A stretch of DNA of 64,000 bases from Cryomorpha ignava (lineage in GTDB: Bacteria > Bacteroidota > Bacteroidia > Flavobacteriales_D > Cryomorphaceae): contig NZ_JAAGVY010000025.1 of NCBI RefSeq assembly GCF_010686655.1, forward strand, positions 1 through 64,000, written 5' to 3'. Below are positions 8,058-12,691 of the stretch, one piece after another; the first letter of the stretch is position 1; each line of letters starts with the position of its first letter. The position numbers and the translations under genes are program-made. Under the pieces are notes generated by a model, which saw nothing but the letters and a program-made list of their open reading frames with translations, did no database searches and was not told where the DNA came from.

Positions 8058-8798
8058 TTAGTTTATCACAAAGCCAATCATGAAGCCCACTCTGTGCAAA
8101 TCGGCCGAGCCGGTGAAGGAATGAATATCTGAAAAAGGGAAGGCATAAGACGCCTCGCTGAGATGGATATAGCGGTAGGTAAGATTGAGCAGAAAAGCGA
8201 AATGCGGGCCGGTATATGCCGCAAAACCTATGCGACCGCCTATAAAACCGCCTTTCTCATAGTTGTATTGGTAGTAGTTGCCACCGTATTGTTCGTTTTG
8301 AAGTGGAATCAAAAACCCGCCATTGATACCCACCAAGGGACTAAAACTTCCTTCCGAAATGTGGTAGCTATAGTCTGCATAAATGGGCGCATACCAGCTG
8401 CCTACATGATTTTCGAGACCCAGCCCAATACCCGCATGATGGCCGTTTAGCTTGTATCCGTTTACCAAATTAAAGGCAAAGGTAATTTGGGTATTGTTGT
8501 TTTGGCTATTGCCAAACTGCGGGCCTGCGAGGGTATTGTTGTAGTAGCCCTTTGATTTGATATCAAAATTCTTCTTGATTATGCTTGCTTCGCCTACATT
8601 TAAGCTGAGTATATTTTCGGCTTTTACGCTTATTATTCTACCGTCGAGAAGTTGTATGGTAGCATGATCTTCTGGTATGTATTCGGTGATATTTCCTTTG
8701 AAAAAGGAGCCATCTTTGAGGTTGATAATGTCGTAGGCTTCCTGGGCGCTAACTAAGGTGGCGATGAAGAAAAGGAATAGTGTAAATATCAGTTTCAT
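8058..8798 (-). CDS. Predicted outer-membrane barrel protein
   Basis: A 246-residue protein with a signal peptide (1-18, VSA-QE). Residues 20-70 (YDIINLKDGSFFKGNITEYI) repeat the short beta motif seen at the start of the protein at 5964. The remainder has amphipathic beta strands and ends RVGFMIGFVIN, fitting an outer-membrane barrel. It lies 6 bases downstream of the LVIVD lipoprotein gene on the same strand, so the two form an operon. Role unknown. Confidence 0.75.
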   Translation of the reverse strand: MKLIFTLFLFFIATLVSAQEAYDIINLKDGSFFKGNITEYIPEDHATIQLLDGRIISVKAENILSLNVGEASIIKKNFDIKSKGYYNNTLAGPQFGNSQNNNTQITFAFNLVNGYKLNGHHAGIGLGLENHVGSWYAPIYADYSYHISEGSFSPLVGINGGFLIPLQNEQYGGNYYQYNYEKGGFIGGRIGFAAYTGPHFAFLLNLTYRYIHLSEASYAFPFSDIHSFTGSADLHRVGFMIGFVIN

Positions 8799-8804
8799 AG
8801 ATCG

Positions 8805-10091
8805 TTAGTTTACGGGAATGAGGCTTAGTTCTTCAATATTCAGCGGATCGGAGTAATCGTACTGGTAAATGCCTTCTTTTGCCGACATGATGAGCACATC
8901 GTTATACGGAATGACATCAAAAGTATTGATTTGCTGATAATGCGAAATGAGGTGATCTGTAATGGTCATATCATCTGCTGCATCAAACACTTTAAGGCCG
9001 GCGCTGCCATCGCAAATAAACAAGGTGTTTCCATCTATTCCCAGGCCGTGGGGATTGGTGAGATTGTATTCTGCGAGTAAAGCCGGAGCATTGTAATCGG
9101 AAATATCAATTACCATCAGTTGGTTTATAAATCCCTGACAGGCGGTGCCGCTGCGGACGGTTACATAAGCTCTATTGTCTTGAACCACCACCGGATCGCA
9201 GGCGGTAAGGTGCGAAATGGCGCTCACATATTCGGGCGTAGAGGGATTGTTGAGATTAAAAATCATCATTCCCGACGAGGTGCCCAAAAAGAGGTGATTG
9301 TTGTAAGGAAAAATCGTTTCGGCATTCCATCCCACCGGAGTTACAGAGCTCTGCTGAGGGCAAAGATCGGAGCCCAGATTAAATGATGTAATTGACGCAG
9401 GACGAAGCACGTAAAGGAAATTTCCGGTAACGGTGAATTGCGCCATGCTTCCGCCAATACCAGTAGAGCTACCTATATTAACGGCTGCATCATTAATGGC
9501 CCCCATTCCAGTTCCAATTGCTGTTTCAAAATCATTATTGAAATTTATTGATTCATACCCTACGGCATCGCGGCTAATTTCTTTTTGAGACCAACTAACA
9601 ATCACCCCTTTTGCAGGATCTATTCCCGTAAAGGGAAGATCGTCCTGATAACCCTTTATTAAAGTCCAATTGTCAAAATCGAATGCATCAGCAATGCGAC
9701 ATTGCAAATCAGGCTGGGCAGGATCGCTTATATCGAATGAAAGTAAATCGTAATACGAATCTACGTAAAGGGCATTGTTAAAAACGGCTAGGTCAACGCA
9801 TCCCGGGATGGTTAAAAATGCCAGGTTTTGCGGTGCGGCGGGGTTGGCATTATTTAAAATATGCACCCCTACTCCTCTTTCTACAATGAAAAGATAATCC
9901 TGATAGATATAAATTTTTCCCGGTTCAGATAAGTCACGCGGATTTTCTGCGGCTATGTCCATAGCTCTCCAGTCGTCCAGATTCATATATTCAGGCACAT
10001 TGGCGGTGTAAGATTCGGTAAATTTGTCGTTGCAAGAACTCAATGCGCCGAGCGCTATGGCCATTATAAGCAGGAGAGAATTGTTTTTCAT
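8805..10091 (-). CDS. LVIVD-repeat lipoprotein
   Basis: A 428-residue lipoprotein with lipobox LSSC (Cys20). The body repeats blade-like units of the LVIVD type: a strand such as DYLFIVERG or NALYVDSYY, then a turn of the LLSFDISDPAQPDLQ or LMVIDISDYNAPALL kind. These build a surface beta-propeller. It is co-directional with the barrel protein at 8058, 6 bases away. Its upstream region is the degenerate 14-bp repeat tract, beyond which lies the sigma/anti-sigma pair; whether that sigma factor drives it is only inference. Confidence 0.82.
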   Translation of the reverse strand: MKNNSLLLIMAIALGALSSCNDKFTESYTANVPEYMNLDDWRAMDIAAENPRDLSEPGKIYIYQDYLFIVERGVGVHILNNANPAAPQNLAFLTIPGCVDLAVFNNALYVDSYYDLLSFDISDPAQPDLQCRIADAFDFDNWTLIKGYQDDLPFTGIDPAKGVIVSWSQKEISRDAVGYESINFNNDFETAIGTGMGAINDAAVNIGSSTGIGGSMAQFTVTGNFLYVLRPASITSFNLGSDLCPQQSSVTPVGWNAETIFPYNNHLFLGTSSGMMIFNLNNPSTPEYVSAISHLTACDPVVVQDNRAYVTVRSGTACQGFINQLMVIDISDYNAPALLAEYNLTNPHGLGIDGNTLFICDGSAGLKVFDAADDMTITDHLISHYQQINTFDVIPYNDVLIMSAKEGIYQYDYSDPLNIEELSLIPVN

Positions 10092-10150
10092 GGTTTAAGA
10101 TTGTTGTGTACTATGATGATGCAGGTTTTTAAAAAATGGTTGCATGGATT

Positions 10151-10329
10151 TTTGATTTCAGATTGATGATTTCAGATTGATGATTTATGATTTGAGATTT
10201 ATGATTTGAGAATTGTGGTTTGAAATTTTTGATTTCAGGTTTTTGATTTCAGGTTTATGATTTCAGATTTATGATTTGAGAATTTTGGTTTGAGAATTGT
10301 GGTTTGAAATTTATGATTTTGAGATTTAC
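10151..10329. repeat. Degenerate 14-bp AT-rich tandem repeat
   Basis: About 12 variants of a 14-base unit close to GATTTCAGATTTAT follow one another, with forms such as GATTTGAGAATTGTG and GTTTGAAATTTAT. The tract fills almost all of the space between the end of the anti-sigma-like gene (10348) and the start of the LVIVD lipoprotein (10091). It is not coding. Such tracts can bend DNA, vary in length by slippage, or be mere junk. Confidence 0.75.
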
Positions 10330-10347: not shown

Positions 10348-11793
10348 TCAAAAAGAAATAAGCGCTCCAAACCGCATCCCTGGCCAAAGGTTTTGCTGGC
10401 TGTAAAAATTGCTACCGGTTATGGAATAATACCGCATGAGCGACCCTTCGGCAAAAAGGCCGAGATGCTTAGTGAACTTAAAACTCATTCCAAGACCAGC
10501 ATATAAGTTAGCCTGATTGCCTTTTGGTTCATCGCTCACACTGCGGCTTTCGGTAGTTTGACCATCAAAAAAAGTCTCCGTAGTTTTTTGCCAAATCAAT
10601 AAATCTATAGCATTGCCGGCGGTTGTGTAGGCCGTGAATTTGGGTTTATCGACAAAATTAAATTTGAGATAAACCGGAATAGAAAGGTATTTCGATTCTG
10701 TCTCCTTGGCTAGTGTTTGAAGTCCATACTTACTTTCAGCTGTGGTTTGCATGCGCAAATAGCCGAGGCCTAAACCGGCAGAGAGGCGTTTCCAAAATTT
10801 AATTTCTCCATTTACACCGTAATAAATAGGTGTTGAGTATGTTAGAGACGTTGGAACTGAACTGTCGGCAGTGCCAATTTCACTCCCCGGACTGAAGCCA
10901 GAAGCCACATCAAAGTTATTTGCTTCAGCCATATCCATGTCGCCGCTTCCGGCAAATGCGAGTTGAGAACCGGCGAGTATCGCAAATTGATTTTCTGAAG
11001 TTGTCTCGGTTCCGTCATAAAACGGAGAGCTTTTTTGTTTTTTATGATCGGCAGATAGATTTGCGGGTTCCACAGTTTTTATTTCGCCGGCTAAAGCTGC
11101 CGTGAGAACTGGAAAGTCTATTTCCGGATCTATTCCAATTATTTTCGTGGGCAATATTCTTTTAACACGAGTGGGCGTTTTGGAAGTATTTCCATTCACC
11201 AGCCCATTTTCGGGAATAGTCAATTCCGTTTCTCGTCCGGCTATTTTTTTATCGGCTAAGCTTACTTGGCCGGTACTTCCAGAATGGGCGTTATCTGGTC
11301 TGCTATTGCTTTTTTCGCTTTTAGGTTTGTTTGTGGCGGTTGTTATTGAGGTATTCGCTTCCGCGGATGTTGAATTTGATTCGATATTGTTAGTTTCCGA
11401 CCCAATAGATTCGGTGTCCGGTTTGGCAGTTTCAGAATCTTTTTTCACATCCATTCTTGTTTCGGAGTGCTTACCGGCAATCTGGCTTTGATTTTCAGGC
11501 GCATTAAATTGCAGAAAAGCGAAATATCCAAACAGCAAAACTGCAGCCGCGGCTCCATACCACCACCAGCCAGCAAAGCGCTTGCGGGATGACGGTCGCA
11601 GAGTAGCTTCTATTCCACGCCAAACATTCCGTGAAGGTGAAACGGAGTGTGCTGAAAATTTCTCACCCAAAAATCCGACGCCACTTCCCGAAGGAATACG
11701 CGCCGAGATAGCATCCCAATTGGTATCGTCAACGGGATAAGAAAAGTCTTCAAACTTCTTGTTCAGATTGCTATTTTGAGATTGCTCTTTCAC
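10348..11793 (-). CDS. Candidate dual membrane-spanning anti-sigma factor (cytosolic domain, one TM, barrel)
   Basis: A 481-residue protein without a signal peptide. Residues 1-72 are cytosolic and contain W/P-type helices (FEDFSYPVDDTNWDAISARI). One transmembrane helix follows at about 77-95, then a Ser/Thr/Asn-rich low-complexity linker (about 100-250), then a C-terminal beta-strand region with outer-membrane-barrel character ending GMRFGALISF. This plan matches Bacteroidota proteins described as dual membrane-spanning anti-sigma factors, where an outer-membrane barrel is tied through the periplasm to a cytosolic sigma-binding domain. It overlaps the ECF sigma gene by 23 bases, supporting the pairing. 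Sigma binding itself is inferred. Confidence 0.72.
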   Translation of the reverse strand: MKEQSQNSNLNKKFEDFSYPVDDTNWDAISARIPSGSGVGFLGEKFSAHSVSPSRNVWRGIEATLRPSSRKRFAGWWWYGAAAAVLLFGYFAFLQFNAPENQSQIAGKHSETRMDVKKDSETAKPDTESIGSETNNIESNSTSAEANTSITTATNKPKSEKSNSRPDNAHSGSTGQVSLADKKIAGRETELTIPENGLVNGNTSKTPTRVKRILPTKIIGIDPEIDFPVLTAALAGEIKTVEPANLSADHKKQKSSPFYDGTETTSENQFAILAGSQLAFAGSGDMDMAEANNFDVASGFSPGSEIGTADSSVPTSLTYSTPIYYGVNGEIKFWKRLSAGLGLGYLRMQTTAESKYGLQTLAKETESKYLSIPVYLKFNFVDKPKFTAYTTAGNAIDLLIWQKTTETFFDGQTTESRSVSDEPKGNQANLYAGLGMSFKFTKHLGLFAEGSLMRYYSITGSNFYSQQNLWPGMRFGALISF

Positions 11794-12325
11794 TTATTAT
11801 ATTTTCTTTTTCAATCATTTCTCTTAGTATTGCTTTGCTGCGGCTGTATTGCGATTTGCTAGTTCCCTCGCTAATGCCCAGTTTGCTTGCTATTTCGTGG
11901 TGCTTAAAACCCTCAATGGCGTAGAGGTTAAAAACGGTTCTGAAACCAATAGGCAGGCGCTGTAAAATAGCCATCAATTCATCGGCAGCCATTCGGCTCA
12001 ATACATCTTCGCTTACTTCGCGCAGGTGCAGGTCTGTATCTTCCACATGCAAAAACTGCACATTTTTACTTTCGCGGTAGCGCTGCAGAGCAATATTTAT
12101 CATAATCCGCCGCATCCATCCGCCCAGAGCGCCCTGCCCTGTATATGAATTAAGGTGGTGATATACTTTTATAAAACCATCTTGAAGAATATCTTCGGCA
12201 TCGGCCACGCAGGAACTATACCGCATACAAATCCCCATCATCTGTGGAGCATACAGTTGATACAGTTTCTTTTGGGCGCTATAATCGCCATCTATACACG
12301 CCTCTACCAGCGCTTTGTCATCCAT
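11771..12325 (-). CDS. ECF-type RNA polymerase sigma factor
   Basis: A 184-residue sigma-70 family protein of the extracytoplasmic-function group. Region 2 lies at about 22-85, with the core-binding and -10 elements DAEDILQDGFIKVY and GWMRRIMINIALQRYR. Region 4 lies at about 115-175 with the helix-turn-helix KHHEIASKLGISEGTSKSQ. It would direct RNA polymerase to a stress- or envelope-linked regulon. The overlapping downstream gene encodes its likely membrane-tethered regulator. No anti-sigma of the FecR type is present. Confidence 0.93.
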   Translation of the reverse strand: MDDKALVEACIDGDYSAQKKLYQLYAPQMMGICMRYSSCVADAEDILQDGFIKVYHHLNSYTGQGALGGWMRRIMINIALQRYRESKNVQFLHVEDTDLHLREVSEDVLSRMAADELMAILQRLPIGFRTVFNLYAIEGFKHHEIASKLGISEGTSKSQYSRSKAILREMIEKENIISERAISK

Positions 12326-12691
12326 TGGCTTTCGATATTCTTCGTATGTCGTCTATAAAATTTGCTTTCTGCACGCAGTTTTATTCAGATGATAGTTCGC
12401 TAACTAACCAAGATATTGATGCATACCCGCAGACTCTATCCACAATCTTTATAAATATACTAAGTTAATGATGCAGATGAGAATGAAAGGGTTGCACGGA
12501 CGGGGTAAAATTTTAGAGGAATATTATTGAATTACCTATTTGCCATTTTCTTAGTTTGCTCATAGCAGTTTGAATAGCTTGCGTTTTTACATTTTAAAAT
12601 GAGCATTATTCAAGTCATGTCCATTTTAATTTATTGCTAATGTCTTCGTTTTTAGCACTATTCGCTAGATGCACATTATTGCTGGCAATAG
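12326..12691. other. Intergenic region, no gene seen
   Basis: This 366-base gap separates the sigma-factor start from the stop of the glycosidase-like lipoprotein. It must hold the sigma-factor promoter, but I see no clear TTTG/TAnnTTTG pair on the minus strand and no strong terminator. Short open frames reaching in from the right are shadows. Confidence 0.6.

Follow-up and report, generated by a model that had tools for sequence, protein, structure and literature searches.

A predicted dual-membrane-spanning anti-sigma factor and its ECF sigma factor within a recurrent gene cassette of Cryomorpha ignava

How do events at the outer membrane reach transcription in Bacteroidota? A locus of Cryomorpha ignava bears on this question: a gene for an ECF sigma factor overlaps there a gene whose product seems to be built to reach both membranes. 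We analysed the locus within a stretch of 64,000 nt (positions 1 to 64,000 of contig NZ_JAAGVY010000025.1, assembly GCF_010686655.1), hereafter the window. The initial annotation, made from the sequence alone, had described the partner protein as a cytosolic N-terminus, one transmembrane (TM) helix, a long low-complexity linker and a C-terminal barrel, i.e. the plan of the Dma proteins of Bacteroides. From the domain plan, barrel, synteny, gene cassette and motif enrichment computed here we infer an outer-membrane-sensing, autoregulated ECF switch, with a probability of about 0.78.

Domain plan of the partner protein and its proposed tie to the sigma factor

The sigma factor has regions 2 and 4 and is of the ECF type; its nearest PDB chains are SigE, SigH and SigW, and TIGR02937 (ECF superfamily) was the sole NCBIfam match above cut-off among the hits inspected. 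The sigma and partner ORFs share 23 bases (11771–11793), as had been noted initially. Coordinates of all features are given in Table 1.

Table 1. Predicted features of the locus, in window coordinates
Feature	Position	Strand	Basis
Small barrel-like protein, 246 aa, N-terminal LKDGS domain	8058..8798	minus	Family HMM; adjoins LVIVD gene in most LVIVD loci
LVIVD-repeat lipoprotein (beta-propeller family), 428 aa, lipobox Cys20; predicted target	8805..10091	minus	LVIVD Pfam match over cut-off
Second dyad copy, GCAACCATTTTTTAAAAACCTGCATC	10118..10143	minus	5′ end 52 b upstream of ATG of LVIVD lipoprotein gene
Putative anti-sigma factor, dual-membrane-spanning, 481 aa, GTG start	10348..11793	minus	ORF, Pfam, AlphaFold2, Foldseek, synteny
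Eight-strand outer-membrane barrel, C-terminal, residues 268–481, last residue F	10351..10992	minus	PF13568; AlphaFold2; Foldseek
Periplasmic tether, low-complexity, residues 97–267	10993..11505	minus	AlphaFold2: pLDDT about 40, almost without secondary structure
Inner-membrane TM helix, residues 70–96	11506..11586	minus	Hydropathy; AlphaFold2 helix 70–96
Putative sigma-binding motif, copy 2, cytosolic, residues 45–66	11596..11661	minus	Conserved P53/W58; modelled helix
Putative sigma-binding motif, copy 1, cytosolic, residues 13–33	11695..11757	minus	P and W..I common to relatives; short helices in model
ECF sigma factor, 184 aa	11771..12325	minus	Pfam Sigma70_r2 (1e-14) and r4_2 (2e-12); phylogeny
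Promoter-like dyad, GCAACCCTTTCATTCTCATCTGCATC	12470..12495	minus	5′ end 170 b upstream of sigma ATG; family-wide enrichment

The outer-membrane barrel family PF13568 matches residues 315–448 of the partner (E 5e-10, above the curated cut-off). An AlphaFold2 model, built with 45 relatives (alignment A6), has short helices within residues 13–65, then the long helix, and strands at 268–277, 323–332, 337–356, 359–382, 386–409, 414–439, 444–458 and 472–480. The pLDDT is about 95 across most of 321–480 and about 40 in the linker (residues about 101–262). When the modelled barrel was compared with the PDB by Foldseek, the best matches were OmpA, OmpW, OprF and Ail (probability 1.00), with a TM-score (normalised by target) of up to 0.66 for 1qjp. 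Confident strands, the PF13568 match and the OmpA-type structural matches thus bear out the barrel proposed in the initial annotation; the single TM helix and the low-complexity linker held up as well. By the positive-inside rule, the RKR run that precedes the TM helix puts the predicted N-terminus in the cytosol.

PF13568 proteins are common, with 13 matches in the genome that carries the window, and the partner might be an ordinary outer-membrane barrel that neighbours the sigma gene by accident and has no part in its regulation. However, the overlap and the TM/N-terminal motif are conserved in dozens of pairs, and plain outer-membrane proteins do not usually have a charged N-terminus in the cytosol with an internal TM helix behind it; we consider a chance neighbourhood extremely improbable.

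As to the class I anti-sigma domain (ASDI), residues 1–70 match no known anti-sigma Pfam family and, in a PDB sequence search, the N-terminus matches no chain of a solved anti-sigma factor; the same search with the whole partner returned nothing useful. What the N-termini of the partners have in common is a motif made of an aromatic residue, then P, then W..I...L, present in one, two or three copies. Among the long-type partners (n = 69) two complete W-motifs occur in the window protein alone; the partner at locus L002 has a motif copy with F replacing the first W. P53 and W58 of the second copy are invariant in one alignment of relatives (A5) and P53 is nearly invariant in another (A6); the copy is modelled with a helix at 55–65 (pLDDT about 80). 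Some sister sigma factors have short partners that lack an obvious sensor domain and carry two or three P-W-I motifs in tandem ahead of the TM helix (L042, L046, L055, L067, L076, L086, L091, L095 and L103). In an AlphaFold2 model of a read-through proxy pair from another species (L046, stop read as Gly, shallow alignment), the anti-sigma part had a pLDDT of 50–65 (pTM 0.37) and no confident placement on the sigma factor.

Taken by analogy with the Reo/Dma plan, together with the synteny, the partner would bind and inhibit the sigma factor; the 481-aa protein very probably reaches from the cytosol to the outer membrane and holds the sigma factor back. Some FecR-like proteins are positive regulators needed by their sigma factors, and adjacency plus a membrane sensor cannot separate an inhibitor from an activator. 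Nonetheless, Dma1, Dma2 and Reo, which have the same plan, are inhibitors by deletion phenotype (PMC13088901, PMC9308784, PMC13114119), and a positive role for the window protein appears improbable. The effect of dma2 deletion works via the cognate sigma factor (PMC13088901).

Related pairs across Bacteroidota

A single-sequence search of 100 relatives gave few matches and alignment-based searches were needed. A profile scan of the genome collection with the sigma alignment detected 80 loci, all from Bacteroidota save one record labelled Chlorobiota. The partner gene lies directly 3′ of the sigma gene in 76 of the 77 relatives with a readable sigma ORF; nearly all of these partners have one predicted TM helix, and the overlap is usually a few to about 23 bases. 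Past the TM helix the architecture varies (n = 79): PF13568 is present in 31 partners, CHU_C (a type-B CTD of the T9SS) in 20 and PKD_4 in 11. A related sigma factor was found in 107 of 119 genomes from the order of Dysgonomonas (E ≤ 1e-35); among the best 30 loci there, nearly all have a long single-TM protein next, with PF13568 in 22. The dual-membrane architecture is widespread in Bacteroidota, and its occurrence outside the gut is not in itself new.

In a maximum-likelihood tree of 107 sigma factors the window sigma groups with those of Crocinitomix, Roseivirga and Cyclobacteriaceae (99/91). It stands apart from, and is distantly related to, the Bacteroidales sigma factors sampled, where Das1 and EcfO are not singled out by name. 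Partner type requires 17 changes on this tree versus 50.7 with shuffled labels; hence, sensor types follow sigma clades, yet have been exchanged repeatedly.

The genome that carries the window has sister pairs of its own. Two of them have PKD plus CHU_C sensors (L023, C6:50752-51303, and L024, C19:57401-57946), and their partners appear to be inner-membrane regulators bearing a T9SS-type (type-B CTD-like) domain. Another (L025) has a short partner with a duplicated motif.

A recurrent cassette and a promoter-like dyad

Downstream of the pair in the window are the genes for an LVIVD lipoprotein and a small protein; because the latter has no Pfam match of its own, its barrel is a putative one. 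Of the 76 collection loci, 18 have an LVIVD homolog beside the pair, and 17 of these 18 have the small barrel gene too; both genes also adjoin the pair in about ten more genomes from the taxonomic order of the window genome. Gene order differs between groups: sigma, anti-sigma, LVIVD, barrel in the window and in Chitinophagaceae; LVIVD, barrel, sigma, anti-sigma in Crocinitomix; and sigma, anti-sigma, barrel, LVIVD in Prolixibacteraceae. The four genes are a recurrent cassette. LVIVD accompanies 18 of 40 long-type partners versus none of the 36 CHU_C/short-type partners (p about 1e-6, a value that overstates the evidence as the loci are related). A literature search found no paper linking LVIVD proteins with sigma factors.

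A search of 395 Bacteroidota genomes detected LVIVD in 56. Among 30 LVIVD loci examined, the majority include the small barrel gene and about twelve the pair; some LVIVD/barrel units have no neighbouring sigma factor related to that of the window. The two genes therefore form an independent unit, which is often but not always coupled to the switch.

The genes of the cassette are also connected by a shared upstream sequence. An unbiased count of dyads over the upstream regions of the cassettes did not rise above shuffles; the motif was picked from the top words of this count and then tested on a wider set with controls, and its discovery is thus partly post hoc. The pattern GCAAC-N14..18-N(G/A)TC, searched in the 300 b that precede the sigma gene, occurred in 60 of 107 pairs, compared with 3 for the reversed pattern, 10 for the reverse complement and 34 of 439 for other ORFs. 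Columns left free in the search turned out to be conserved as well: GCAAC is preceded by A (37 of 50) and T (36 of 50) and followed by C, T/A and TTT in that order, the (G/A)TC box has C/T in front of it, and its TC is followed by no base other than T or A. The resulting consensus, (A)TGCAACC-TTT-N12-(C/T)(G/A)TC, resembles an ECF-type promoter.

The form GCAACYNTT-N13..15-RTC has four matches in the window, where 0.59 are expected and none of 100 shuffles reached four; two of the matches precede the sigma and LVIVD genes. A tighter form has 12 matches in the 5-Mb genome versus four for the backwards control, the sigma and lipoprotein sites being among the 12. Where a sigma gene is nearby, 21 of 30 LVIVD/barrel units have the dyad in front of them, compared with 2 of 18 where there is none (p about 8e-5, again overstated by the relatedness of the loci). 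Its position before both the sigma gene and the lipoprotein gene implies autoregulation plus an adjacent target; with the same promoter signal, the lipoprotein/barrel pair looks like a target of the switch. The best reading of the dyad is an ECF promoter that the window sigma family would recognise directly, with autoregulation and with the LVIVD unit as a target.

Several further sequences were observed around such sites. An A/T-rich degenerate tandem array (10147–10328; 13 copies of a unit of about 14 b, GATTTATGATTTCA) lies between the anti-sigma and LVIVD genes and adjoins the second dyad. Elsewhere in the window genome, a dyad (ATGCAACCATTT-N10-TGCATC; L256, C23:69624-69649) is situated about 20 b upstream of the gene for a 230-aa lipoprotein with no Pfam match, in which CTKNDDDD follows the signal, in a surface-export-like manner; this lipoprotein is a candidate further target. 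So may be a secreted Por_Secre_tail protein (T9SS), whose gene has a dyad about 20 b upstream (L252, C9:87177-87202) and is preceded by another barrel gene.

Could the LVIVD lipoprotein and the small barrel, beyond being targets, also be partners of the anti-sigma barrel, in a sensory complex or a feedback module at the outer membrane? That several families have retained the cassette while its gene order changed speaks for such a role, as do the restriction of LVIVD to long-type loci and its strong conservation: LVIVD homologs at sigma/anti-sigma pairs are 34–42% identical, with C298, C318 and C360 invariant, while anti-sigma identity among relatives is 12–23%. But a plain target role suffices for the dyad before the LVIVD gene, LVIVD/barrel units exist without the pair, and many barrel-type pairs have no LVIVD; we regard the partner role as possible, though doubtful. 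The three cysteines, invariant in alignment A7 besides the lipobox Cys, are suggestive of a disulphide.

A wider and equally tentative proposal, which we place well below even odds, is that all four genes serve a single system of outer-membrane surveillance, in which the LVIVD propeller lipoprotein and the small barrel would be sigma targets and, at the same time, a co-sensor or feedback signal that acts with the anti-sigma barrel; one sigma-locking N-terminal motif would have been recombined with barrel and PKD/type-B CTD sensors across Bacteroidota. For further work, the predicted promoter, the predicted neighbouring target unit and the recurrent cassette supply candidate partners and a reporter that is ready for use; from the shared dyad, regulons can be predicted in many environmental Bacteroidota.

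Proposed signal relay and comparison with known systems

In the proposed outer-membrane-sensing switch, the 481-aa protein would be anchored in the inner membrane by its one helix, its disordered tether (about 170 residues) would cross the periplasm, and the OmpA-like barrel would be inserted in the outer membrane. The cytosolic N-terminus, with its two short helical P-W-I motifs, would keep the sigma factor inactive. A cue perceived by the barrel (a ligand, mis-assembly or envelope damage) may be relayed along the tether so that the sigma factor is freed; it would then transcribe its own operon and the adjacent LVIVD/small-barrel unit from promoters of the consensus given above.

The same anti-sigma factor could, however, be cut in its tether and TM helix by regulated proteolysis and relay its signal in that way, as RseA and RsiW do, instead of coupling the two membranes as an intact protein. 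Single-TM anti-sigma factors usually release their sigma factor by such cleavage, and a long unstructured linker is an easy protease target that could transmit a pull, not a push. On the other hand, most long-type relatives keep the barrel and the TM domain in a single polypeptide, as would be expected if continuity matters before release. We hold proteolysis to be a serious contender, at somewhat less than even odds.

The proposed switch can be compared with several known systems. In FecI-FecR-FecA cell-surface signalling an outer-membrane input also acts on an ECF sigma factor through an inner-membrane regulator; however, receptor and regulator are separate proteins there, whereas the window system joins them in one polypeptide. 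The single-TM PKD/CHU_C partners (L023, L024, L038, L041, L056 and others) share with the window protein the sigma family, the P-W-I motif and the single TM helix, and many of them have the same dyad; where the window protein has a barrel, their sensor consists of PKD and CHU_C domains.

EcfO-Reo (Bacteroides fragilis/Phocaeicola vulgatus) has the same plan. By published description, the anti-sigma factor Reo spans from the cytoplasm to the surface, the sigma gene is strongly induced, and EcfO controls nigD lipoprotein genes, so that the output includes surface lipoproteins (PMC9308784, PMC13114119); we count all three features as likenesses. The predicted lipoprotein target in the window differs in being of the LVIVD family and in adjoining the pair.

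The plan is also that of Dma1/Das1 and Dma2/Das2 of Bacteroides thetaiotaomicron, compared here by published description. Dma2 has an N-terminal anti-sigma part, a TM helix, a long disordered tether and a C-terminal barrel, and is encoded beside an ECF21 sigma factor; Dma1 shares this domain order (PMC13088901). The order in the window protein equals that of Dma1, Dma2 and Reo, in agreement with the Dma-type plan initially proposed. The differences are that the window sigma belongs to another clade than the Bacteroidales sigma factors sampled, that the N-terminal motif is duplicated, and that the genes next to the pair encode an LVIVD lipoprotein and a small barrel in place of NigD. This kind of switch is already known from gut Bacteroides; the cassette, the dyad, the duplicated motif and the other sensors on sister sigma factors go beyond the initial annotation.
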